A stretch of DNA of 64,000 bases from Nitrosophilus alvini (GTDB lineage: Bacteria > Campylobacterota > Campylobacteria > Campylobacterales > Nitratiruptoraceae): the NCBI RefSeq assembly GCF_015100395.1, contig NZ_AP022847.1, positions 62,001 through 126,000 of the forward strand, written 5' to 3'. The position numbers and the translations under genes are program-made. This document shows, one piece after another, positions 36,992 through 53,181 of this stretch; the stretch's first letter is position 1; every line of letters starts with the position of its first letter. The notes beneath the pieces are model-generated. The model worked only from the letters and a program-made list of their open reading frames with translations. It was not told where the DNA came from and searched no databases.

Positions 36992-37088
36992 TATTTTCTT
37001 CTTAAAGCGATTGAATAAATATTTAGTCCCAAAAATATACAAGAACTGCATTTTTTTATCTATCGGTTAACTTCTTTTGATTAAAATA

Positions 37089-37102
37089 TGAATCATCATT
37101 CA
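37089..37102 (+). promoter_or_regulatory. Inverted repeat TGAAT-N4-ATTCA at the nickel operon promoter
   Basis: TGAAT CATC ATTCA lies directly after a TAAAAT -10-like box (37082-37087), that is near +1, and 17 bases before the first gene. The same half-sites and spacing occur at the hydA promoter (44506-44519). This is a candidate operator for a common regulator. Confidence 0.5.
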
Positions 37103-37118
37103 CCAAAGAGGAGATTTT

Positions 37119-37790
37119 ATGAAAAAAACCGTACTTTTTCTACTCCCCTTTATGCTTTTTGGACACGATATATGGATAGAGAAAAATGAGCAGGGATATC
37201 AGCTTAACTACGGACATCTGCATCCCTCATCGGAGCACGCCGGCAAAAAAACGATCGAGTACAACCCTGAAAATATAAAAGAGATTGTTTGTGAAAAAGA
37301 GGGAAAAATCGAAAAAATCGAAAATACACGGAGTTATCCCCTTGTTATAAAAGATAAATGTGATGCACTATTTATATATATGGATAACGGTTATTTTACA
37401 AAGACGCCGTACGGTACAAAAAATCTTCCCAAAAACGAAGTAAAAATGGCTCTTAAAAGCTGGAGAAGTTTTGAAAGTGTTAAAAGAATTGAGAAAAATT
37501 CAAAAAAATCGATTGGAAAAGGTTTGGAGATCCTTTTGCTAAACGATGTGAAAAAGGTTGGTGACAAAGCAAGGCTGCTGATACTCTTTGACGGGCGGCC
37601 TGTTGAAGGAGCTGTTGTGGCTTACGATGATAAGCCAAGAGGACAAAGCGGGGTTGACGGAAGGGTGAATATCAGAGTCAAAAGAAGCGGCCTTCAAAAT
37701 ATCAAAGCGACTTTAAGAAAAAAGTGTGATGACAACAGATGTGATGAGGTGGTATATACAACCACACTGAATATAGAGGTGGCTGAATGA
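37119..37790 (+). CDS. nikK: Nickel ECF transporter periplasmic component NikK-like (DUF4198)
   Basis: The protein has 223 residues. The signal peptide MKKTVLFLLPFMLFG is followed by a mature protein starting HDIWIE, so a His-Asp lies at or near the mature N-terminus. LHPSSEHAGKKTIEYN is typical of DUF4198 proteins. The C-terminal part is an immunoglobulin-like domain (GRPVEGAVVAYDDKPRGQSGVDGRVNI). It is the first gene of a six-gene operon with ATGA overlap into the next. Its role is probably periplasmic metal delivery to NikM; cobalt cannot be excluded. GAGGAGATTTT precedes the ATG. Confidence 0.75.
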   Translation: MKKTVLFLLPFMLFGHDIWIEKNEQGYQLNYGHLHPSSEHAGKKTIEYNPENIKEIVCEKEGKIEKIENTRSYPLVIKDKCDALFIYMDNGYFTKTPYGTKNLPKNEVKMALKSWRSFESVKRIEKNSKKSIGKGLEILLLNDVKKVGDKARLLILFDGRPVEGAVVAYDDKPRGQSGVDGRVNIRVKRSGLQNIKATLRKKCDDNRCDEVVYTTTLNIEVAE

Positions 37791-41285: not shown

Positions 41286-41888
41286 GTGGCAAGGGTATCC
41301 AAGGAAGAGAGAAGAGAAGAGATCATAAATACGGCTCTGAGACTTTTCTCAAAAAAAGGATTTTACAATACTACAATGCCTGAGATTGCAAAAGAGCTGG
41401 GTATGAGCGTTGGTAATCTTTATAACTACTTTCATTCAAAAGAGGCATTGGCAAAAGAGATCATTATCTATACATCTGAACTTCTTGGCAGTGAGTTGAG
41501 GAAGATAAATGATCTTGATATATCTTCAAAAGAGAAGATAAAGAAGTTTGTGGAAGTGTATTTTAAAATAGCTCAGGAAAGACCGGAGATGATAGAGTAC
41601 TTTCTACGTGTCTATCTCTCAAACAGAGAAGTTTTCAAAGAGGGATGTGAAGGCATGATATGTATCTCTGCATTTGTTACCGAAATAATGATATTTTTTG
41701 AAGAAGGTGTAAGAAAAGGGGAGCTTAGAGACCAGGATTTTTTCAGCGCATTCGGTCTTTTTATGGGTTATCTGGGGGGAATGGTATTTTTAAAAGGCGA
41801 AGGTATTTTGCCTAACGGACTGGACTACTATATAGACGATATATCGGAAAATATCCACTATGCACTCTCCTACGGCGCAAAAGGCTAA
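41286..41888 (+). CDS. TetR family regulator, first gene of a hydrogen-sensor operon
   Basis: The 200 residues have the TetR HTH at 8-55 (INTALRLFSKKGFYNTTMPEIAKELGMSVGNLYNYFHSKEAL) and a helical ligand domain with several Cys (EGCEGMICISAF). The GTG start has AAAAAAAGGATTTC upstream. Its 3' end overlaps the HupU-like gene by 29 bases, so they are co-expressed. Its location between the nickel operon and hydABCDE, both preceded by TGAAT-N4-ATTCA, makes it a candidate regulator of both (inference). Confidence 0.9.
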   Translation: MARVSKEERREEIINTALRLFSKKGFYNTTMPEIAKELGMSVGNLYNYFHSKEALAKEIIIYTSELLGSELRKINDLDISSKEKIKKFVEVYFKIAQERPEMIEYFLRVYLSNREVFKEGCEGMICISAFVTEIMIFFEEGVRKGELRDQDFFSAFGLFMGYLGGMVFLKGEGILPNGLDYYIDDISENIHYALSYGAKG

Positions 41889-42774
41889 AATTATCTGGTT
41901 GCAGGGAGTTACCTGTAACGGCAACACTCACTCGTTTCTCAACTATGAAGGTTTTGAGAGATTTTTCCAAAGATATGATCTGCTTTATCATCCGCTGTTC
42001 GATACGGAGCTTGGTATAAACGATCTGTCAAAATTTGAAGAAAATTTCGATTTTCTGATACTTGAAGGTGCGGTAACCGGTAATGAGGAGTTTAAAAGAG
42101 GCAAAACCTCTTTTGCTAAACTTTTTGAAAAATTGGCAAAAAAAGCCAGGTATATTTTAGCTGCCGGAAGTTGTGCCTCCTACGGCGGCGTTTTTAAAGA
42201 GTATGATCCGGAAAATATAACCGGAATTGTATTTGATAAAGAGAGTAAGAGAGGTATTTTCAAAGAGTATGAGAACAAAACAGTTAATATTCCAGGTTGC
42301 CCCCTTCATCCTGAATGGTTAATCACCGTTCTTGATATGTTAAGTATAGGAAAAATGCCGCATCTTGACGAATATCTCCGGCCAAAAGAGCTATATGCCT
42401 ATCTTGCGCATGATGGATGTATAAGAAATGAGTATTTCGAATGGAAGATAGATGTCAAAGATTTTGGATATAAGGAGGGCTGTCTTTATTATGAACATGG
42501 TTGCAGGGGGCCTATGACACACGCAAGTTGCAATAAAATATTGTGGAACAGTGTCAGTTCCAAAACCATGGCAGGAATGCCCTGTATAGGATGTACCGAG
42601 CCCGACTTTCCTAAAACAGAGCTTTTTGAAACAAAAAAATATATGTCTATTCCTGCCGAACTTCCGTTTGGCATCCCCAAAAGAGCATATCTTACAGTTA
42701 CCGGTATAACAAAAGCTTTTAAGATAGATAGACTTGAAAAGAGATTGATTGATGATAGTAAAAGAGATAATTGA
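41860..42774 (+). CDS. hupU: Cytoplasmic [NiFe] hydrogenase small subunit, HupU-like
   Basis: The 304 residues have no Tat signal, so the protein is cytoplasmic like regulatory HupU/HoxB. Cluster ligands are visible at WLQGVTCNGNTHSF, AGSCASYGGV, NIPGCPLHPEWL, AHDGCIRNEYFEWK, EGCLYYEHGCRGPMTHASC and GMPCIGCTEPDFP, so three Fe-S clusters are likely. There is no C-terminal anchor. It overlaps both the TetR gene and the large-subunit gene. Hydrogen sensing is inferred from architecture and the partner's missing C-terminal extension. Confidence 0.82.
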   Translation: MHSPTAQKAKIIWLQGVTCNGNTHSFLNYEGFERFFQRYDLLYHPLFDTELGINDLSKFEENFDFLILEGAVTGNEEFKRGKTSFAKLFEKLAKKARYILAAGSCASYGGVFKEYDPENITGIVFDKESKRGIFKEYENKTVNIPGCPLHPEWLITVLDMLSIGKMPHLDEYLRPKELYAYLAHDGCIRNEYFEWKIDVKDFGYKEGCLYYEHGCRGPMTHASCNKILWNSVSSKTMAGMPCIGCTEPDFPKTELFETKKYMSIPAELPFGIPKRAYLTVTGITKAFKIDRLEKRLIDDSKRDN

Positions 42775-44059
42775 ACGGATTGAAGGCGAAGCCGAACTCG
42801 ATTTTACCTATAAAAATGGAATAATAGAAAATGTAAAGATAAAATTTCCGCATTTTAGGGGAATGGAGCATATTATCGAAGGAAAATCTGCTATGGATGC
42901 TCTGGTAATTACCCCAAGGGTATGCGGTATATGCGGCCATGCCCATCTAATAGCTGCAACAAGGGCTATGGAAGACCTTTACAAAAACAGTTCAAATGAT
43001 ATAGAGATAACAAAAAAAGCCTCCGATATAAGAGAGATAACACTTAATTGCGAAATTATCCAAAATCACATCAAATGGTTTTACTTTGTTATGTATCCTT
43101 TGATAAGATCAATCCAAAAAGGTAGTCAAGAGTTTATATCTCTTAAGAATAAAAAATTTTTCGAAGCACAAAAAGCAGTTGTCCAAATATCCAAAATAAT
43201 AGCGCTTTTCGGCGGACAGTGGCCTCATACCTCTTATGCACTTCCAGGTGGTGTTATGTGTGATCCCACATATGTTGAAATTGTCCAGGCTTTATCTTTT
43301 CTGGATGAAGTTTACGGCTTTTTTGAGAAAAATATTTTTTCTGACGGTGTAGAAGCTTTTTTGAGTTGTTCCAATAGTGAACTGATTTCAAAAGATGGTG
43401 ATATATCGCTGTTTGTAAAAAATGCCTATGAACAATCTTATGAGAAAATAGGCAGAAGTTATGACAGATTTATCGTTTTTGGCGAAAACTCTCTTTTTAA
43501 ATCTGGAAAAGTATTAACAACGATAGTATATCCGGTAAAAACGAAATATGTAACAGAAAAAACTCAAACATTTACATATTCTAAAAATGTATATTACAAA
43601 GATAAATTTTATGAAACGGGACCTCTCGCAAGACAGATGCTTTTAAAGCAGCCTTTAGTAAGAGAGTTTCATAGAAAACTAAAAGACTCGGCTATAACAA
43701 GGATTGTAGCGAGAGTTGCGGAAACTGCTCTGCTTCTTCAAAAGACAAGAGATCTGCTGAAATGTCTTGATATAGATGCTCCTTCATACATAAGACCCAA
43801 AAAGAATATCCATAAAATTTCCGGTTCGGGCATCGGTGTAGTTGAAGCGGCAAGAGGATCGCTCATACACAAAATAGAGATAAAAGAGGGGCTTGTAAAA
43901 AAATATGAGATTATAACACCGACTCAATGGAATCTAGGAAACGGTACAAAAAAATGTCCGGGCGTTGCGCAAAAAGCTATGATAGGGTTGAAAGATAAAA
44001 AACTTGCAGAGTTTGTTTTCAGATCCTTTGATATCTGTTCTGTATGTACTACCCATTGA
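42752..44059 (+). CDS. hupV: Cytoplasmic [NiFe] hydrogenase large subunit, HupV-like
   Basis: The protein has 435 residues. The N-terminal CxxC motif is RVCGICGHAHLIAATRAME, and the C-terminal motif is DICSVCTTH. The protein ends at that His, so it lacks the cleavable C-terminal peptide, as in sensor hydrogenases HupV/HoxC. The usual DPC is DIC. Four cysteines for the Ni-Fe site are present. The ATG at 42752 is preferred to the overlapping TTG. No histidine kinase HupT/HoxJ gene is nearby; the upstream TetR gene is the only regulator in the operon. Confidence 0.83.
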   Translation: MIVKEIIERIEGEAELDFTYKNGIIENVKIKFPHFRGMEHIIEGKSAMDALVITPRVCGICGHAHLIAATRAMEDLYKNSSNDIEITKKASDIREITLNCEIIQNHIKWFYFVMYPLIRSIQKGSQEFISLKNKKFFEAQKAVVQISKIIALFGGQWPHTSYALPGGVMCDPTYVEIVQALSFLDEVYGFFEKNIFSDGVEAFLSCSNSELISKDGDISLFVKNAYEQSYEKIGRSYDRFIVFGENSLFKSGKVLTTIVYPVKTKYVTEKTQTFTYSKNVYYKDKFYETGPLARQMLLKQPLVREFHRKLKDSAITRIVARVAETALLLQKTRDLLKCLDIDAPSYIRPKKNIHKISGSGIGVVEAARGSLIHKIEIKEGLVKKYEIITPTQWNLGNGTKKCPGVAQKAMIGLKDKKLAEFVFRSFDICSVCTTH

Positions 44060-44071
44060 TGACGGAAGCCG

Positions 44072-44284
44072 TTACATTCTGGCTTCCAGTCTTCGAAGCA
44101 TCCATATCCGCCTAAGCATTTTTTTGCGGGCTTTGAGTTTCTCTTTTTTTCGTCGCTCTGTCGGCGGTTCGTAAAACCTTCTCGCCCTTGCCTCTGTAAC
44201 AATCAGGTTTCTGTCAACCTGCTTTTTGAACTTTCTGTAAGCCTCTTCAAAAGATTCGTTAGGTTGCACTATGATGCCTGGCAT
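44072..44284 (-). CDS. rpsU: 30S ribosomal protein S21
   Basis: The 70 residues start [22 protein letters not shown] and have the basic tail [24 protein letters not shown] lies 6 bases before the ATG at 44284. S21 helps ribosomes bind mRNA during initiation. It stands alone on the minus strand between the two hydrogenase operons, converging with hupV. Confidence 0.96.
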
Positions 44285-44492: not shown

Positions 44493-44521
44493 TATTATAC
44501 CATTTTGAATGAACATTCATT
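44493..44521 (+). promoter_or_regulatory. hydA promoter with inverted repeat TGAAT-N4-ATTCA
   Basis: A TATTAT -10 (44493-44498) is followed by TGAAT GAAC ATTCA (44506-44519), also readable as AATGAA-CA-TTCATT (44508-44521), at the expected start of transcription. A bound repressor would block initiation. The half-sites and spacing match the nickel operon site at 37089-37102. Confidence 0.55.
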
Positions 44522-44532
44522 TGGAGGGTATT

Positions 44533-45768
44533 ATGCTTGACAAAAGAGAGGCATTAAAGAGAGTATTTACTGCAAAAAGCAGCAGGATTGACACAAATAG
44601 AGGTGAAGCCTATTATGAAGCTTTGTGGCAAAAATGCAGAGCCAGGCTTGATGAACTTAAAAAAATGGCTCCCCGTACAAAAGTCGATCTGAGTGAAGTG
44701 CTTGAAGATGAAGGGCTTACCAGAAGGGATTTTATGAAATGGGCTAGTGCCGCTACAGCAATGCTAATGCTACCTGCCTCATTTACTCCTCTTGTTGCAG
44801 AAGCTGCCGAACTTATGAACAGAGTTCCCGTTATTTGGCTGGAACTTCAGGATTGTGCCGGCAACTCAGAAGCTCTTCTTAGAAGCGACGGGCCTAAAAT
44901 AGATGAAATTATACTCGATATTATCAGCTTGGAATTCCACGAGACTCTTATGGCGGCAGCGGGTCATCAGGCTGAAGAGCAGCTTCATGATGCAATGGAG
45001 CATTTCAAAGGGAAATATCTTCTTTTTGTTGAAGGCGCCATACCTCTGGCAAATGGTGGAATTTACGGAACAATCGGACCTAGTGGAGAGACTTTTGAAG
45101 AGCATCTAAAAAGGGTGGCCAAAGATGCAGCGGCAATTGTAGCAGTGGGTACTTGTGCAACATTTGGTGGAGTTCCCGCAGCTGCACCGAATCCTACGGG
45201 TGCAGTGGGTGTTATGGATATAATAAACGGAAAACCGATTATCAATATTCCCGCTTGTCCTGCAAACCCGGCAAATATGGTAGGAGTTATTTTACATTTT
45301 GTTCTTACCGGTCAGATTCCGGAACTTGACTCTCTCCTTAGACCCAAATTTGCTTTCGGTTACAGAATTCATGATAACTGTGAAAGAAGAGCGCACTTTG
45401 ATGCAGGCGAGTTTGTAGAGGAGTGGGGAGATGAGGGTGCTAAAAACAACTGGTGTCTTTATAAAGTAGGCTGTAAAGGTCCTATGACATTCAATAACTG
45501 TTCTATTGTCAGATACAACGAGGCTGTTAACTGGCCTATAGGTGCCGGACATGGATGTATAGGTTGCAGTGAGCCTGATTTTTGGGATAAATATGCATAT
45601 GAAAGACCTATGGCAGATGCGAATATAAAAGCTCCCACTGGCGGAGTGGAAAAAACAGTTGATGAGTTTGGTCTAGGAGTTTTAACTGCAACTGCGGTAG
45701 GTATAGGTATCCATGCAGCGGCGAGCGTTTTGGCCGGCAAAAAATCTGACGAGGGAGAAAAACAATGA
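44533..45768 (+). CDS. hydA: Respiratory [NiFe] hydrogenase small subunit HydA (Tat-exported)
   Basis: The 411 residues start at the ATG at 44533 with GGAGGGTATT upstream. The twin-arginine motif LTRRDFMKWASAATAMLMLP comes after an N-terminal extension of about 55 residues, typical of the Wolinella type. Cluster ligands are ELQDCAGNSEALLR, GTCATFGGVP, NIPACPANP, HDNCERRAHFDAG, NNWCLYKVGCKGPMTFNNC and GHGCIGCSEPDFWD. A C-terminal helix (LGVLTATAVGIGIHAAASVLA) anchors it in the membrane. It exports folded HydAB and feeds electrons to HydC. Confidence 0.96.
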   Translation: MLDKREALKRVFTAKSSRIDTNRGEAYYEALWQKCRARLDELKKMAPRTKVDLSEVLEDEGLTRRDFMKWASAATAMLMLPASFTPLVAEAAELMNRVPVIWLELQDCAGNSEALLRSDGPKIDEIILDIISLEFHETLMAAAGHQAEEQLHDAMEHFKGKYLLFVEGAIPLANGGIYGTIGPSGETFEEHLKRVAKDAAAIVAVGTCATFGGVPAAAPNPTGAVGVMDIINGKPIINIPACPANPANMVGVILHFVLTGQIPELDSLLRPKFAFGYRIHDNCERRAHFDAGEFVEEWGDEGAKNNWCLYKVGCKGPMTFNNCSIVRYNEAVNWPIGAGHGCIGCSEPDFWDKYAYERPMADANIKAPTGGVEKTVDEFGLGVLTATAVGIGIHAAASVLAGKKSDEGEKQ

Positions 45769-47495
45769 GCAAACATATTGTAGTTGATCCTATTACAAGA
45801 ATAGAAGGACATCTTAGAATTGAAGCGATTATAGATGATAACAACACTATTGTTGATGCATACAGTTCCTCAACGATGTTCAGAGGAATCGAAGAGATAC
45901 TAAGAGGCAGAGACCCCAGGGATTGCGGCCTTTTGGCTATGAGGATATGCGGAGTATGTACAGGAACCCATTATCAAAGGAGTATTGAAGCGGTTGAACA
46001 TGCATTTGGCATTACAATACCTAAAAATGCAAGAATTGTCAGAAACCTTATACAGGGCTCTTTGTATGTTCATGACCATGTGGTACATTTTTACCATCTT
46101 CACGCTCTAGATTGGGTTGATATTACAAAAGCGCTTGAAGCGGATCCAAAAAAGACGGTTGACGAAGCTTTCAAATGGGCCAAAGTCGCTGGAGTCAATC
46201 CATGGGTTGCAGATGCTGCCAAGTTTGGCGAAGTTCAGGAAAGACTGAAAAAATTTGTAAAACAGGGACGTCTGGGACCTTTTGCGAAAGCATACTGGGG
46301 GAATCCACATTACAAACTGACGCCGGAACAAAATCTCCTTGCGGTAACCCATTATCTGCAGGCACTTGACCTTCAAAGAGATGCTGCGAAGATGATGGCC
46401 GTATTCGGAGGAAAACAGCCGCATCCACAAAGCATTGTAGTTGGCGGTGTAACTTGTGTGCAGGATATCAAAAATCCGGCGAGAATAGGACTTTTTAAAG
46501 ATTTGCTGATGAATTTCAGAAAATTTATCAAGCAGGCGTATCTTCCTGATATCTATATGGCCGGAACAATGTATGCGGATGAGGCTCTTGATGGAACGGG
46601 AGGAGGTCTTAAAAGCTTTCTTTCATACGGAGATTTCAGACTTGACGATACAGGATTTTACAACTCTGCGCTCCTGTTTCCAAGCGGTGTAGTTCTAAAT
46701 GGGGATTTGAGCAGGGTTTATGAGTTTGACCAAAACAAAGTTACAGAAGACGTAACACACGCCTGGTATGAGGGAGATAAACCTCTGCATCCTTTTGATG
46801 GAGAAACTATTCCTAAATATACCGGTTTTGGTAAAAAAGAGGGAGGTATCGCATATCTAAATACAAAAGAGAAATACAGCTGGATAAAATCGCCTATTTA
46901 TGACGATCACAGAGTTGAGGTAGGACCGCTTGCAAGAATGGTGGTCGGAGTTGCAAAAGGAGATAAAAGAATCAGCGAATATGTGACAAGATTCCTTAAG
47001 AACGGAAATCTTCCTACAAAAGTTCTCTTTTCTACTGTGGGAAGAACGGCGGCAAGAGCGATTGAGACAGAACTCATGGCTGATATAATGGTAGAATGGA
47101 CTGATGAACTTGCTAAAAATGTAGCTTCGGGAGATCTTTCAACCTGGACTGAATTTGACTTTGACAAAGTAAGCAAAGATGCCCAAGGATATGGACTGGC
47201 GGAAGCTCCAAGAGGTGCGCTTGGACACTGGGTGAAGATAAAAGATGGAAAAGTTGCGAACTATCAGACAGTTGTTCCCTCTACGTGGAATGCGGGTCCA
47301 AGAGACTATAAAGACAGAATGGGTGCATATGAGGCGAGTCTGATTGGAACAAAAGTAGCAAATCCCGAAGAGCCTCTCGAAATTTTAAGAACAATTCACA
47401 GCTTTGACCCATGTATTGCATGTGCGGTGCATCTGATTGATACTAAAGGAAGAGAGCTGGGAGTTTACAAAGTAGATACTTCCTGTGCAATCTGA
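45765..47495 (+). CDS. hydB: Respiratory [NiFe] hydrogenase large subunit HydB
   Basis: The 576 residues bind the Ni-Fe active site through RICGVCTGTHYQRS (about 60-75) and DPCIACAVHLIDTKG near the end. A 15-residue tail after the final His (LIDTKGRELGVYKVD region) is removed by HydD on nickel insertion. It overlaps hydA by 4 bases (ATGA). It oxidises H2 in the periplasm, reducing quinone through HydC. Confidence 0.97.
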   Translation: MSKHIVVDPITRIEGHLRIEAIIDDNNTIVDAYSSSTMFRGIEEILRGRDPRDCGLLAMRICGVCTGTHYQRSIEAVEHAFGITIPKNARIVRNLIQGSLYVHDHVVHFYHLHALDWVDITKALEADPKKTVDEAFKWAKVAGVNPWVADAAKFGEVQERLKKFVKQGRLGPFAKAYWGNPHYKLTPEQNLLAVTHYLQALDLQRDAAKMMAVFGGKQPHPQSIVVGGVTCVQDIKNPARIGLFKDLLMNFRKFIKQAYLPDIYMAGTMYADEALDGTGGGLKSFLSYGDFRLDDTGFYNSALLFPSGVVLNGDLSRVYEFDQNKVTEDVTHAWYEGDKPLHPFDGETIPKYTGFGKKEGGIAYLNTKEKYSWIKSPIYDDHRVEVGPLARMVVGVAKGDKRISEYVTRFLKNGNLPTKVLFSTVGRTAARAIETELMADIMVEWTDELAKNVASGDLSTWTEFDFDKVSKDAQGYGLAEAPRGALGHWVKIKDGKVANYQTVVPSTWNAGPRDYKDRMGAYEASLIGTKVANPEEPLEILRTIHSFDPCIACAVHLIDTKGRELGVYKVDTSCAI

Positions 47496-47508
47496 CAAGG
47501 AGCGGCAA

Positions 47509-48213
47509 ATGAAAGCAGGATATAAAAAAGTAGAGCGAATGACTCGCTCTATGCGCATTATTCACTGGATAAACGTTATCAGTGTTGTAGCTGCTGTTAT
47601 AACCGGTTTATATATCGGCCATCCCTACTATCAGAGTTTTATAGCCGATCCGGCTGTGGATAAATATGTAATGGCGTGGAACAGATGGGTACATTTTATA
47701 GGTGCGATTTTGCTAGATGTTACATCTATTGTAGTAGCGTATCTTTATTTTTTCAGTCGATTTGAGAAGCCTTATAAAAAGATAATCCCTACCGGCAAAA
47801 ATGTTAAAGAGTTTATCGAAGTTGTGTTAAATCTTATAACGCTTAACAGAAGAAAAAACTTTGATTCCAGTCACAGTGACAGTTTCAATGTTGTCTATTT
47901 TACAATATTGCATCTGATGCTAGTGTGGATGCTTTTGACGGGTTTGCAGCTATATGTACACGGACTTGCATCCGGACACAGCTCTATAGGGGACTGGTGG
48001 CCGTGGCTTCTGCATTTTGCTACCGACTGGACTATATATGCAACAGGCGGGTCGCTTATGGATGTGAGGATTTCACATCACTATACATGCTGGTGGATAG
48101 TCGCATGGGTAATCTTCCATGTCTACTATCAGATATGGCGTACTATATACTGGAGAGAGGGCGATATGGCTATCGTATTTGGCGGCTATAAATTTGCAAA
48201 AGATGAAAAATGA
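47509..48213 (+). CDS. hydC: Hydrogenase cytochrome b subunit HydC
   Basis: The 234 residues have four transmembrane helices and heme-ligand histidines in MRIIHWINVI, WNRWVHFIGAILL and HHYTCWWIVAWVIFHVYYQ. This is the quinone-reducing diheme anchor of HydAB. The ATG at 47509 has AAGGAGCGGCAA upstream; the open frame from 47485 overlaps hydB and is less likely. Confidence 0.95.
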   Translation: MKAGYKKVERMTRSMRIIHWINVISVVAAVITGLYIGHPYYQSFIADPAVDKYVMAWNRWVHFIGAILLDVTSIVVAYLYFFSRFEKPYKKIIPTGKNVKEFIEVVLNLITLNRRKNFDSSHSDSFNVVYFTILHLMLVWMLLTGLQLYVHGLASGHSSIGDWWPWLLHFATDWTIYATGGSLMDVRISHHYTCWWIVAWVIFHVYYQIWRTIYWREGDMAIVFGGYKFAKDEK

Positions 48214-48755
48214 AAAACATAGTTGTCGTTGGTGTAGGCAATATACTCTTTATGGACGAAGGAGTGGGAGTATATGCTGCAAAATATCTAAGGGAGAATT
48301 TCTCTTTCTCCCCCGATATCGAGATAATTGACGGTGGAACTCTCGGTTTTAAACTGATGACATACTATCAGACATATGACAAAGTGATAATTCTTGATAC
48401 TGTTTCTGTCAAAGATGAACCCGGTTCTGTTTACAATATGCCCAGCGATGTTCTTATGGGACTTGGAAGTTATCGTCAGACAGCCCACGAAGTCGAGGTA
48501 GTGGAGATGTTAGAGATCTGTTCGATGCTTGACAAAATGGCCGAGGTAAATATAATAGGCATAATTCCTGAAGATATTGAGAGCGTAAAGATCGATCTTA
48601 CGGAAAAACTCAAAAAATCTTTTAAACCGTTCATAAATGAAGTGATAAAAGAGCTTGAAAAAAGCGGGGTAGTAACTACAAAACATGAAAAAGAAACAGT
48701 GCTTGAAGAGATTATAGCTGACTACAACTCACCTTCTCACAAACTTCTTTATTAA
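48210..48755 (+). CDS. hydD: Hydrogenase maturation protease HydD
   Basis: This nickel-dependent endopeptidase trims the HydB C-terminus. The 181 residues begin IVVVGVGNILFMDEGVGVYAAKYL, where Glu binds nickel, followed by DGGTLG (Asp) and AHEVEVVEML (His), the metal triad of HyaD/HybD-type proteases. It has an ATGA overlap with hydC. It is longer than HybD at the C-terminus (about 20 extra residues). Confidence 0.94.
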   Translation: MKNIVVVGVGNILFMDEGVGVYAAKYLRENFSFSPDIEIIDGGTLGFKLMTYYQTYDKVIILDTVSVKDEPGSVYNMPSDVLMGLGSYRQTAHEVEVVEMLEICSMLDKMAEVNIIGIIPEDIESVKIDLTEKLKKSFKPFINEVIKELEKSGVVTTKHEKETVLEEIIADYNSPSHKLLY

Positions 48756-48772: not shown

Positions 48773-50683
48773 ATGGTATTGGAGATAGATTTTTCATCAA
48801 AACAGAACTATATACAAAAATATATAAAAGCGATTGCCAAATATTCGAATATAGATATAAAAATAGGCAGAGAAGAGGATAAAATAGTTGTTTTATTTGA
48901 CGAAAAGAGTGAAAATGTCGAAAAATTTATGAAAAATCTGCAAGATTTATTGCCATATTCGCTTTTTATGGGCAAGAGCGGATATGTTGTATCAAACAGA
49001 GAGATAAATGAAGTCAAGTTGGTTGATATACCGCTCAGTTTGGGATTGTGCCCAAATTGTATCAAAGAGATGCTGGATGTAGAGTCGAGAAGATATTACT
49101 ATCCTTTTACTTTTTGCAGCAACTGCGGGGGACATTACGCTTTTTTCGAAAAATATCCCTTTATCAGGGAAAATACCTATCTTTCGCCTTTTAAAAATTG
49201 TGAAAAATGTGAAAATGAGAAACAGAACAACCCTTTTAGAGAAGAGTTCGCACTGATTTCCTGCATAGAGTGCAATATCCCGATAAGAGCCGAAAACAGA
49301 AAGGCTTCAAAAACCCTTTGGGCCAATGATAAAGGTGAATATAAAAAGGTTTTTGGAATCGCTGCTGCATCTATAAAAAATGGTGAAAAAGTTTTGGTTA
49401 AAACTCTGTTCGGATTTAGACTTTTTTGTAAAACACCAGTTGAAGACCAGAATATATTGATTACAAACGCAAACAGGGTTTCGAACCATTTTCTTCTTCT
49501 TTCTCAGGAAAAACATGCGCTTTTCAGTATAGAAAAACCTATAATCAGAGCAACCGTTTCCAATGAGAAGATAAAAGAGGATACAGGTACATCGGTTGCC
49601 AGGATAAAAGCTCCCGATGAGGGATTTACGCTGCTGCTTGCAAAAGAACTATCGATGGCGGGAATTGACTATATATATTACAGGGATGTGAAAGAGGAAA
49701 ATATCGATTACGATATCCTGATAACATTTGATTTGCCGATAAACACTCAGGAAGAGTGTGAATATTTTATCAATAAAAACGCTAAATTTTTTGCAAAAGG
49801 TGAGCGCTCACTCTTCCCAAAAATCTTTGAAAATGCTATAGATACTGTCAGTGTGGCAAAAGGATATGCGGCAGTCGGTTTTGAAGGAAAGACACTGATC
49901 GATAAAATAGATAAAGTTCCCAAATCAACGGCTGTTGAAGTCAAAGTTCTTGATAACGAACCTATAGAGATAGAGCACTCCAATATCAAGAGTTTTTCTG
50001 CTGACAAGGCTGCTTTTTTATCTGTAATTGCCGAAAACAATGTTTTTGACAAAAGTGCTGTGGGAGTCTATTTCTCAAAAAATGTCTCTTTTATGCTTTA
50101 CAGTGCCAAAAGGGCCAAAAGAGTGATGGAGTTTGGAAAGTACAACGCAGCAGCCATCCTAGATGATATAAAAACATTAAGAGAGGGTTCCGACAGGCTT
50201 GTAGAGAATTTTAAAAAGAGATTTGAGGATATTTGTGATCAGATTTCAAGGATAGAAGGAGAAAGAGAAGATTTTCTAAATACTGCCGCTATAATTGCGG
50301 GGATCGGTTCGGAAGAGGAACTCGCAAACAGAGCACTTCAGTTCGCAGGAAAAGGAGGAGTGGCGATTGATTGCGGATTTAGAGAGGGAAAGTTTGACTA
50401 CAGTTCATTTTTTGCCTCCATTATGAGTTATAAACTGGCGGATATCGACGAGCTTCTTCTTTGTTATTCCATTTTTGAATCGCTTGGGGATTTTATCGCT
50501 TCGGTGGTAAACGAAATAAGAGAAAAGACAAAAGCGAAAAATGTTGTATTGTCAGGAAAATACATAGCAAATCAGGTATTTTTCAGCAGATTTTCCACCA
50601 AACTGACATTCGCAAAGCCATTAATAAACAGAGAATTTCCTTGTGATGAGCAAAATTTTGTTTACGGAGGAATTTTTGTATAA
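48773..50683 (+). CDS. hydE: HydE, HypF-related hydrogenase accessory protein
   Basis: The 636 residues align in order with HypF. One zinc-ribbon pair is LCPNCIKEMLDVESRRYYYPFTFCSNCGGH, with a second set CEKCENEKQNNPF...CIECN. A YrdC-like middle region (about 240-420) and a degenerate Kae1-like end (VVLSGKYIANQVFFSRF, compared with the HypF VILSGGVFQNRIL) follow. The acylphosphatase motif VQGVGFRPF, the HHLAH metal motif and the DGTGYG loop of HypF are missing, so carbamoyl transfer is unlikely. It has a 17-base gap after hydD with AGAGGC. Probably a maturation helper specific to HydAB. Confidence 0.8.
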   Translation: MVLEIDFSSKQNYIQKYIKAIAKYSNIDIKIGREEDKIVVLFDEKSENVEKFMKNLQDLLPYSLFMGKSGYVVSNREINEVKLVDIPLSLGLCPNCIKEMLDVESRRYYYPFTFCSNCGGHYAFFEKYPFIRENTYLSPFKNCEKCENEKQNNPFREEFALISCIECNIPIRAENRKASKTLWANDKGEYKKVFGIAAASIKNGEKVLVKTLFGFRLFCKTPVEDQNILITNANRVSNHFLLLSQEKHALFSIEKPIIRATVSNEKIKEDTGTSVARIKAPDEGFTLLLAKELSMAGIDYIYYRDVKEENIDYDILITFDLPINTQEECEYFINKNAKFFAKGERSLFPKIFENAIDTVSVAKGYAAVGFEGKTLIDKIDKVPKSTAVEVKVLDNEPIEIEHSNIKSFSADKAAFLSVIAENNVFDKSAVGVYFSKNVSFMLYSAKRAKRVMEFGKYNAAAILDDIKTLREGSDRLVENFKKRFEDICDQISRIEGEREDFLNTAAIIAGIGSEEELANRALQFAGKGGVAIDCGFREGKFDYSSFFASIMSYKLADIDELLLCYSIFESLGDFIASVVNEIREKTKAKNVVLSGKYIANQVFFSRFSTKLTFAKPLINREFPCDEQNFVYGGIFV

Positions 50684-50883: not shown

Positions 50884-53181
50884 TTGCGGAAAATAAGAGC
50901 TGTAATAAAGATTAATGGCATAGTTCAGGGAGTCGGTTTTAGACCTTTTATCTATAAACTTGCGAAAGAGTACTATGCGAACGGTTTTGTTATGAATGAC
51001 GCAAAAGGCGTTCTTATAGATATTGATATTGAAGATGATAAAATCGACTCTTTTTTAAAAGCTATTTCGTATAAAAAGCCTTCGCTTGCACGTATCGATG
51101 AAATATCCTATAAGACTTTCGATTCTTTGCAACGAGACGGCTTTTTTATCAAAGAGAGTTGTTCAGACGTTGAAAAAAGCGCTGCCGTTTCTCCTGATAT
51201 AGCGGTTTGTGAAAACTGTCTCGAAGAGATGAGAAATCCACAAAACAGAAGATATCAGTACTATTTTATAAATTGCACAGATTGCGGTCCAAGATATACT
51301 ATAACAAGAACTGTTCCTTTTGACAGAAAAAACACTTCTATGGCCGAATTTGAAATGTGCCCGAAGTGTAAAGAGGAGTATGAGGATCCTCTTGACAGAA
51401 GATATCACGCACAGGCAATATCCTGTTTTGATTGCGGTCCGGGATTATGTATAAAAAGCAAAAAAGGAAAGACTTTTGCCGAGGGAATAGAAGCTATAAA
51501 AATGGCCGCCAAACTTTTGAAAAAAGGCAAAATTGTAGCGGTTAAAGGCTTGGGTGGATTTCATTTGATGTGTGATGCAACCAACGCAAGGTCGGTCAAG
51601 ACACTCAGACAGAGAAAAAACAGACAGTCCAAGCCTTTTGCCGTAATGTTTAGAAATCTTGACCAGATAGAAAGAGTGGCCGAACTTTCCGAAAGAGAAA
51701 GAGAACTTATACTCTCAAAAGAGAAGCCTATAGTAATCGTGAAAAAAAGAAAAATCCACAGACTTGAGTGCTACAAATACAAACTTGCAGCCTGTGTGGC
51801 TCCTGAGATAGACAGGCTAGGGGTGTTTTTGCCATATACCCCTTTGCAGCATATACTTTTTGAGTATTACGGATGTCCTCTTGTGGCTACTAGTGCGAAT
51901 ATGAGTGATGAACCAATAATAACAGACAGCGAAGATTTGCTAAAGAGACTGGGAAATGTTATCGATTTTTATATAGATTACAACAGGGAGATAGTAAACG
52001 CATGTGATGACAGCGTAATTCAGTGTATAGACGATAAGAAAGAGACGGTCAGACTAGCACGTGGTTTTGCTCCCAAAACTATAAAACTTCCCTTTTCAGT
52101 TGAAAAAAACATATTGGCAGTAGGTGCAAATCAGAAAAACAGTATAACAATTGCTATAAAAGATAAACTGATAATGTCACCTCATATTGGAGATTTGAAT
52201 ACTATTGAATCCTTTGGCTATTTTGAAAAAACAGTTGATACTTTCAAAAGATTTTACGATTTTGAACCAGATATTATAGTATGTGACAAACATCCCGGAT
52301 ACGAAACCACCAAATGGGCAGTAAAAGAGACTCAAAAAAGAGAAGGCGAAGTCGAACTTTTACAGGTTCAGCACCATCTTGCGCATATTTATGCGTGTAA
52401 AGCGGAACTTGGCATAGATGAGGATTGTCTGGGATTTAGCTGGGACGGTACAGGATATGGTGATGACGGTAATATCTGGGGCGGTGAAGTTTTCAAAGGA
52501 GACGAAAGAGCGTATCATTTCAAATATTTCAGGCTCATAGGCGGAGAAAAAGCTGTAAAAGAGCCAAGGCGCGCGGCACTTGGTCTTCTTTTTGAGATAT
52601 TTTCTTTAGATGAGATTTTGGAGATGGACAATCCCACCGTAAAGGCATTTTCCAAAGAGGAGATAAAACTTTTACATCAGGCCTATGAAAAAGGTCTCAA
52701 CTCGCCTCTTACAAGCTCGGCAGGTAGAATCTTTGATGCAGTTGCATCATTTGCAGGAATTATACAAGAATCCGGATACGAAGGCCAGAGCGGTCTTATT
52801 ATCGAAAAACTCTATAACGATATGTGCAGTGACTCCTATAAATATGAAATTAAAGATGGAATTATTGATATTTCGCAAATGATAAGGCAGATTTTAACGG
52901 ATCTGAATGCGAAAAACTGTACCGAAAAGAACTGCAAATGTATGATATCCACAAAGTTTCTCAATACGATGAAAAATATAATCGTAAATATTGCAAAAAA
53001 AGAGAATATGCCCGTGATTCTTTCCGGAGGAGTATTTCAAAACAGAATACTTTCTGAAAATGTTATAAAAGAGTTTGAGAAAGAGGGAATAAGATACTAC
53101 TTCCAGCACGATACCCCTATTAACGATGGTGGAATATCATTGGGACAGATATGGTATATTTTGTCCAAATATTCCAAATAG
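50884..53181 (+). CDS. hypF: Carbamoyltransferase HypF
   Basis: This prepares the cyanide ligand of the Ni-Fe site from carbamoyl phosphate together with HypE. The 765 residues contain an acylphosphatase domain (GIVQGVGFRPFIYKLA), two zinc fingers (CENCLEEMRN...CTDCGPRY and CPKCKEEYED...CFDCGPG), a YrdC domain (LKKGKIVAVKGLGGFHLMCDA, LVATSANMSDEPI) and a Kae1-like domain (LQVQHHLAHIYACKAE, SWDGTGYGDDGNIWGGEVF, ILSGGVFQNRIL). It starts at TTG behind AGGAGAGA. HypABCDE are elsewhere. Confidence 0.97.
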   Translation: MRKIRAVIKINGIVQGVGFRPFIYKLAKEYYANGFVMNDAKGVLIDIDIEDDKIDSFLKAISYKKPSLARIDEISYKTFDSLQRDGFFIKESCSDVEKSAAVSPDIAVCENCLEEMRNPQNRRYQYYFINCTDCGPRYTITRTVPFDRKNTSMAEFEMCPKCKEEYEDPLDRRYHAQAISCFDCGPGLCIKSKKGKTFAEGIEAIKMAAKLLKKGKIVAVKGLGGFHLMCDATNARSVKTLRQRKNRQSKPFAVMFRNLDQIERVAELSERERELILSKEKPIVIVKKRKIHRLECYKYKLAACVAPEIDRLGVFLPYTPLQHILFEYYGCPLVATSANMSDEPIITDSEDLLKRLGNVIDFYIDYNREIVNACDDSVIQCIDDKKETVRLARGFAPKTIKLPFSVEKNILAVGANQKNSITIAIKDKLIMSPHIGDLNTIESFGYFEKTVDTFKRFYDFEPDIIVCDKHPGYETTKWAVKETQKREGEVELLQVQHHLAHIYACKAELGIDEDCLGFSWDGTGYGDDGNIWGGEVFKGDERAYHFKYFRLIGGEKAVKEPRRAALGLLFEIFSLDEILEMDNPTVKAFSKEEIKLLHQAYEKGLNSPLTSSAGRIFDAVASFAGIIQESGYEGQSGLIIEKLYNDMCSDSYKYEIKDGIIDISQMIRQILTDLNAKNCTEKNCKCMISTKFLNTMKNIIVNIAKKENMPVILSGGVFQNRILSENVIKEFEKEGIRYYFQHDTPINDGGISLGQIWYILSKYSK

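Follow-up and report, generated by a model that had tools for sequence, protein, structure and literature searches.

The window analysed here is a 64,000-nucleotide stretch of the genome of Nitrosophilus alvini (contig NZ_AP022847.1, positions 62,001 to 126,000), a member of the Campylobacterota related to Nitratiruptor, whose genome of 1.81 Mb lies on one contig. Three overlapping plus-strand genes in this window, the subject of the present study, encode a TetR-family regulator with a FadR-like fold (tetR, 41286 to 41888, GTG start, TetR_N 64.6 bits) and the small and large subunits of a group 2d [NiFe]-hydrogenase (huaS, 41860 to 42774, NiFe_hyd_SSU_C 92 bits; huaL, 42749 to 44059, NiFeSe_Hases 145 bits). 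The overlap between tetR and huaS is 29 bases, and that between huaS and huaL is 26 bases from the TTG start of huaL at 42749, or 23 bases from an alternative ATG at 42752. A second hydrogenase cluster follows on the plus strand, beyond a minus-strand gene (44072 to 44284) that by eye resembles ribosomal protein S21. It consists of hydA, the small subunit of a group 1b respiratory hydrogenase with a twin-arginine translocation (Tat) motif (44533 to 45768, TIGR00391 472 bits); hydB, the group 1b large subunit, with a C-terminal extension (45765 to 47495, PF00374 727.9 bits); hydC, an open reading frame (ORF) named as the cytochrome b subunit from its position and look (47485 to 48213); and hydD, a maturation endopeptidase (48210 to 48755, TIGR00072 above the cut-off). 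In scans with Pfam and NCBIfam, none of TetR, HuaS and HuaL rose above an NCBIfam equivalog cut-off, and hydAB scored with NCBIfam as a Tat-bearing respiratory hydrogenase with its own protease gene present. Eight bases ahead of the hydA ATG at 44533, which follows a GGAGGG and opens the proposed target operon, lies the palindrome TTGAATGAACATTCATTTGG (44505 to 44524, 21.9 bits), a candidate operator for the TetR protein.

Searches of the class and family yielded 119 loci, which together with the window make 120; they were chosen on huaL alone and never on tetR. A huaL orthologue was found in 113 of the 397 genomes of the class. A tetR orthologue stands upstream of huaS, on the same strand, in 117 of the 120 loci; two of the other three (L073 and L164) are cut by a contig end, and the third (L179, from a genome that is 71% complete) has another gene in that place. 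Searched on its own, TetR was recognized in 115 of the 397 genomes, namely in 112 of the 113 with huaL and in three of the 284 without it (G158, G360 and G219, the last being a fragment that contains a stop), the counts of 113 and 112 having been made by hand with cut-offs of our own choice (E at most 1e-78 for huaL orthologues and 1e-30 for TetR). By distances taken from mechanical first starts, tetR and huaS overlap or lie at most 10 bp apart in 114 of 117 loci, and huaS and huaL do so in 111 of 117. Chance overlap of the genes was rejected, because the trio is conserved across the class. In the Aquificota, tetR is found upstream of huaL in three of 12 loci, all of them from Hydrogenothermaceae, and in none of the seven loci outside that family, one of which has only 456 bp upstream; two further Persephonella loci have no TetR beside huaL, one of them being cut at a contig end.

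Two minor features of these neighborhoods were also recorded. Ten tetR ORFs of the Arcobacter-like family f7 (L115, L121, L125-L127, L132-L135 and L138) encode 161-162 amino acids, and their frame extends upstream without any ATG, GTG or TTG to an ATT (ATC/ATA in L132) within a few bases of a preceding GGA-type ribosome site; read by eye, this is a rare start codon conserved among the ten, which would keep the regulator scarce. At L274-L277 (mostly Bacteroidota, one labelled Rickettsiales), a group 2a-like hydrogenase has one or two unrelated TetR genes, without the cysteine motif described below, just upstream, and this is perhaps a second, independent pairing of TetR with hydrogenase.

The effector domain of TetR contains a pair of cysteines, C121-x4-C126, that is invariant in all 117 orthologues and also in a 44-member set including three from Hydrogenothermaceae, and C-x4-C was found in none of 14 other TetR proteins, three of them from the genome of the window. 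Averaged over all pairs from 104 loci, identity is 0.618 for TetR, 0.517 for HuaS, 0.442 for HuaL and 0.646 for HydA; the effector half of TetR (0.682) and its DNA-binding half (0.662) are similarly conserved, and the effector domain is more conserved than the hydrogenase. In the AlphaFold (AF2) model of TetR, the predicted local distance difference test (pLDDT) score is 88.9, the weakest part of the core being residues 101 to 130 or thereabouts (pLDDT 60-78, lowest just before C121), and because of these values we make no claim about the geometry of the cysteine loop. The TetR fold itself was confirmed, with 834 of 1000 Foldseek-ranked chains at Z of at least 8. The fold closest to the model is that of Bacillus subtilis FadR (YsiA), with Z of 19.9, a root-mean-square deviation of 2.3 over 186 residues and 16% identity. 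However, FadR differs from the window protein, which has the invariant C-x4-C and a hydrogenase partner, and the NCBIfam FadR model gave 40.7 bits with TetR against a cut-off of 200. Paralogues of this TetR, at about 175-253 bits, occur at L348, L352 and L355 (also at L349, L350, L351 and L353), where they adjoin other hydrogenase clusters with palindromes nearby, or molybdate-uptake or unrelated genes; in some of them C-x4-C is shifted by about three residues, and others have none.

When palindromes were counted within 300 bp ahead of tetR and of hydA, a strong family appeared at hydA only, with the symmetric-matrix consensus wTRAATGAnTAnTCATTyAw. The palindrome is even-centred and 18-20 bp long, as is typical of TetR operators. 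The matrix, which was trained on the 107 tetR-linked hydA upstreams and whose scores on these loci are flattered because the same set was used, gives 12 bits or more in 98 of 107 hydA upstreams, in eight of 117 tetR upstreams and in 0.4% of shuffles; over whole loci, a palindrome of at least 14 bits stands at hydA in 96 of the 107 hydA-holding loci and at tetR in four of 120. A plain matrix-free pattern, devised after the sites had been seen, matched 80 of 107 hydA upstreams and none of 117 tetR upstreams. In the Sulfuricurvum-like loci L102, L109, L110 and L139, the palindrome falls just below 12 bits. The core of the window palindrome (44506 to 44523) has no other exact match in the 1.81 Mb, and six other places differ from it by one mismatch. 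TATAAT-like (-10-like) hexamers peak 4-9 bp before the palindrome (41, against about 16 expected), and we infer that the palindrome occupies the position of a repressor; a promoter scan upstream of hydA, with four promoter-like matches against 2.1 expected, was given no weight. The palindrome would be close to, or nearly identical with, the FadR operator consensus; a search for a published form of that consensus gave none.

Held-out tests of the matrix were made on unlinked hydA genes, on genomes without huaSL and on loci of the Hydrogenothermaceae. Among hydA genes unlinked to tetR-huaSL, counted without L339, which is truncated, and without L340-L347, hydrogenase-like proteins of more distant kinship, the palindrome was found in ten of 11 cases, and in the eleventh (G240, L331) one hydA lacks it and a second hydA has two copies. 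Fifty genomes without huaSL were picked by hand; 49 had a hydA-like match, all 30 returned loci were used, and the palindrome is present at three of these 30 hydA loci, one of the three being that of G360, which retains TetR. The 12 closest hydA genes of this set (73-81% identical to that of the window) are all without the palindrome. Over all rows, comprising 107 linked, 11 unlinked and 30 other loci, it accompanies hydA in 111 of 119 cases with TetR versus two of 29 without. On the HydA tree there are nine independent supported pairs that differ in TetR, and the palindrome agrees with TetR in 6.7 of them on average and is never opposite (median p 0.016). G360 (L298, L316), in which tetR lies directly before hydA, and G158 (L354), in which the hydA palindrome scores 23.1 bits, combine TetR and palindrome in the absence of huaSL. 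In the Hydrogenothermaceae, the palindrome precedes hydA (L250, L272) or hypA and nickel-transport-like genes (L244). This comparison provides good evidence, and supports well, that the TetR protein would be the reader of the hydA palindrome.

A preliminary description of this locus, made from the sequence alone, had called the hydrogenase HupUV-like, and had reported gene overlaps of 29 and about 23 bases, a small subunit without a Tat signal and a large subunit terminating at the final metal-site His. The structural points stand: the overlaps are as given (23 bases with the huaL ATG at 42752), huaS has no twin-arginine leader, and huaL ends ...FDICSVCTTH. The HupUV label does not. In comparison with the C. 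necator proteins (taken from the annotated record of pHG1), HuaS shares 29% identity with HoxB and HuaL 26% with HoxC, and the proximal cluster motif is CNGN in HuaS versus CGGC in HoxB. A contig scan with an alignment of 20 huaL sequences yielded 80 loci, in which Campylobacterota came first, then Hydrogenothermaceae and other Aquificota (38-46%), and then group 2 relatives of other phyla (28-30%). Judged by sequence, HuaSL is an enzyme of the Aquifex-type group 2d and not a true HupUV; its Campylobacterota members go by the names group 2d, huaSL or hupSL in excerpts of the literature (PMC12286921, PMC6702916, PMC11406935).

The missing Tat signal and the mature C-terminus had been read as marks of a sensor. 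However, because group 2d hydrogenases of Aquificota without any tetR share both features, neither is specific to sensors, and the mature C-terminus was rejected as a sensor mark. Loss of the second proximal Cys was rejected as a sensor trait as well, CxGN being present also in Huc, in group 2a of the Bacteroidota and in group 2d of the Aquificota. HuaS has a conserved C-terminal tail. The Ni ligands C59, C62, C430 and C433 are present in HuaL, and these four Cys are conserved, as are the Glu of RGxE and the active-site Arg of EAxRG; oxidation of H2 is a predicted activity. The final metal-site His is usually held fixed in [NiFe]-hydrogenases; it is replaced by Gln or Lys (CTTQ, CTAQ, CTTK, CTVK) in 31 of 119 complete HuaL proteins of the class. 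The group 1b small subunits of the class have CxGN in 74 of 111 cases and CTGC in 37, so that most of the respiratory enzymes, HydA of the window among them, have likewise lost this Cys.

HupUV/HoxBC resemble HuaSL in being soluble [NiFe] heterodimers without Tat leader or C-terminal extension, in the C-terminal tail of the small subunit, and in the role proposed for both, the sensing of H2 for a membrane-bound uptake hydrogenase. They work with a HupT/HoxJ kinase and a HupR/HoxA activator; for HuaSL no activator of the HoxA type was found in the genome, and the link is to a one-component regulator of the TetR family. Other group 2d enzymes (A. aeolicus hydrogenase III and the HupSL/HuaSL of Campylobacterota) have the same C-terminal end and the same CxGN motif, and are accompanied by TetR in the Campylobacterota and the three Hydrogenothermaceae loci but not in the seven Aquificota loci outside that family. 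Among solved structures, Huc (M. smegmatis Hydrogenase-2, group 2a) is closest in sequence for both the large and the small subunit, and it has the CxGN proximal site in common; its large subunit chain has 513 residues versus 436 for HuaL.

A true HupUV with its kinase encoded elsewhere was also considered and seems unlikely. No NtrC-type activator of the HoxA/HupR kind was found in the genome, in which five matches to PF00158 reached 31.3 bits at best; against that model, a genuine NtrC-type protein would be expected to reach a much higher score. A search of the genome with C. necator HoxJ gave generic kinases only and no convincing HoxJ (best 51.6 bits, 27% identity over the kinase core). 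The preliminary description had noted the lack of a kinase gene beside the locus, where we found none either, and had held that a HupT/HoxJ-HoxA system elsewhere, or absence of tetR from the loci of relatives, would refute H2 sensing through TetR. Neither was found, and the tetR-hydrogenase neighborhood is conserved, in the 117 of 120 loci already mentioned, through Campylobacterota and some Hydrogenothermaceae. Its guess that hydA is the target agrees with the palindrome comparison, by which hydA is the likely target.

We consider it moderately likely that tetR-huaS-huaL is a one-component H2 switch, in which TetR would repress hydABCD and the oxidation of H2 by HuaSL would relieve the repression. 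When H2 is absent, a TetR dimer would sit on the palindrome, which would overlap the start region of hydABCD, and keep the operon silent; when H2 is present, soluble HuaSL would oxidise it and signal to TetR, most likely by electrons handed to the invariant C-x4-C, either directly or by way of a small carrier, and TetR would then leave the DNA and allow hydABCD to be made. The comparison of sequences supports the conserved trio, the palindrome, its link with TetR and its placement at the promoter; binding of the palindrome by TetR, repression, and control by HuaSL and H2 are what we infer, and action of H2 through TetR is plausible though unproven. H2-dependent derepression agrees with the strict partnership with huaSL, with the cysteine pair, with the place of the palindrome at the promoter, and with the 2.3 to 6.2 fold increase of hynAB under H2 in A. 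butzleri (PMC12286921). A narrower version, in which electrons from H2 reduce the C-x4-C, as a disulfide or as a bound metal or Fe-S centre, and thereby release TetR from hydA, is offered tentatively, as a possibility on the less likely side; with such direct wiring of HuaSL to TetR, Campylobacterota and some Aquificota would sense H2 without the help of a kinase or phosphorelay.

Several observations weigh against the H2 switch. In A. butzleri, huaSL itself falls with H2, which simple derepression leaves unexplained, and the comparison there was of H2 with acetate (PMC12286921); in Sulfurospirillum multivorans, hydB hardly changes whether or not H2 is added and looks constitutive (PMC5357620, in the portion available). 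In G360 and G158, an intact TetR and a hydA palindrome are maintained though huaSL is missing, and TetR may therefore work without HuaSL. The palindrome is present without TetR in G180 and G138, and L250 of Persephonella has a palindrome at hydA, yet no TetR beside huaL. Most Aquificota outside the Hydrogenothermaceae hold group 2d enzymes without any TetR, and the modelled TetR fold is nearest to that of FadR, an acyl-CoA sensor.

TetR might instead be a repressor of a hydrogenase regulon whose C-x4-C or FadR-like pocket senses sulfane sulfur, redox state, oxygen or acyl-CoA, and not H2 by way of HuaSL, the latter being a metabolic hydrogenase inherited along with it, which might serve ferredoxin and the reductive tricarboxylic acid cycle, for instance. 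We regard this as rather unlikely, and it keeps the weight it has because the two genomes just named retain TetR and palindrome without huaSL; it would also suit the FadR-like fold, the TetR paralogues that, with no huaSL present, neighbor molybdate genes or those of other hydrogenases, the repression of S. denitrificans hydrogenase activity by thiosulfate (PMC6682613, a review, in excerpt) and the ferredoxin role proposed for the group 2d enzyme (excerpts of PMC4584964 and PMC2628731). However, it accords poorly with the near-perfect co-occurrence and gene overlap with huaSL, and HuaSL seems too scarce for bulk metabolism in Sulfurospirillum, where hupL transcripts were near absent (available portion of PMC5357620) and HupSL was absent from proteomes (PMC6242987). 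In S. denitrificans, soluble H2-uptake activity is reported to be lacking although huaL is transcribed (a review, in excerpt), and both this lack and the scarcity of HupSL are more in keeping with a sensor than with a bulk enzyme.

That TetR represses tetR-huaSL only, as Kruse et al. 2017 suggested for S. multivorans, in which it adjoins hupSL and the hupL transcript is near absent (same portion of PMC5357620), is improbable; the change of A. butzleri huaSL with H2 would agree with it, but the palindrome stands at hydA and rarely at tetR (96 of 107 versus four of 120 with the matrix, 80 of 107 versus none of 117 without it), and tracks the presence of TetR even at unlinked hydA. More improbable still is a reading of the hydA palindrome by some other regulator (Crp/Fnr-, Fur- or NikR-like), with shared lifestyle behind the correlation with TetR, although hydABC of H. 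pylori is controlled by Fur and NikR (a review, in its available part) and the matrix was trained on a TetR-containing set. Against this reading, the palindrome has the even-centred form usual for TetR operators, goes with TetR in 6.7 of the nine independent pairs, never the opposite way, and persists in both genomes that have TetR but lack huaSL.

The role of the soluble group II/2d enzyme of Campylobacterota has been debated ever since vent genomes first became available. That it may be an H2 sensor was proposed from phylogeny (reportedly Nakagawa 2007, and Campbell 2009), and Goris is said to have placed a TetR gene upstream of hupSL in S. multivorans in 2014; both the sensor proposal and this gene order were already known. 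In the available part of PMC4584964, the role is disputed, being that of a sensor (Nakagawa 2007), catalytic (Sievert 2008) or ferredoxin-linked (Campbell 2009), and "further experiments" are called for. Kruse et al. 2017 describe the TetR gene as directly upstream of hupSL in S. multivorans and as a possible hupSL repressor (PMC5357620); the gene order is the same as here, whereas the portion available proposes neither an operator at hydA nor a role in sensing. In the open-licence PMC literature, we found no paper that links this TetR to hydA or to H2 sensing. As far as the search shows, the class-wide pairing of TetR with huaSL, the invariant cysteine pair and the candidate operator that tracks TetR at the respiratory hydrogenase are new. 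With a signalling partner and a promoter site named, the question of role is reduced to a footprint and a knockout; if the H2 switch is true, bacteria that are common at hydrothermal vents would sense H2 with a one-component repressor, and the switch would supply a compact part for H2 biosensors.

Two other features of the window may be added. A weak second palindrome (37084 to 37103, 10.2 bits), the second best of the window, may be due to chance; it directly precedes an ORF at 37119 that is possibly the first gene for Ni/Co transport. Downstream of hydD, a HypF-like protein of 636 amino acids (48773 to 50683) matches HypF over only 145 residues (95 of 466 bits), and an apparently full-length hypF follows at 50884 to 53181; a similar short form also adjoins hydD in L348 and L352.

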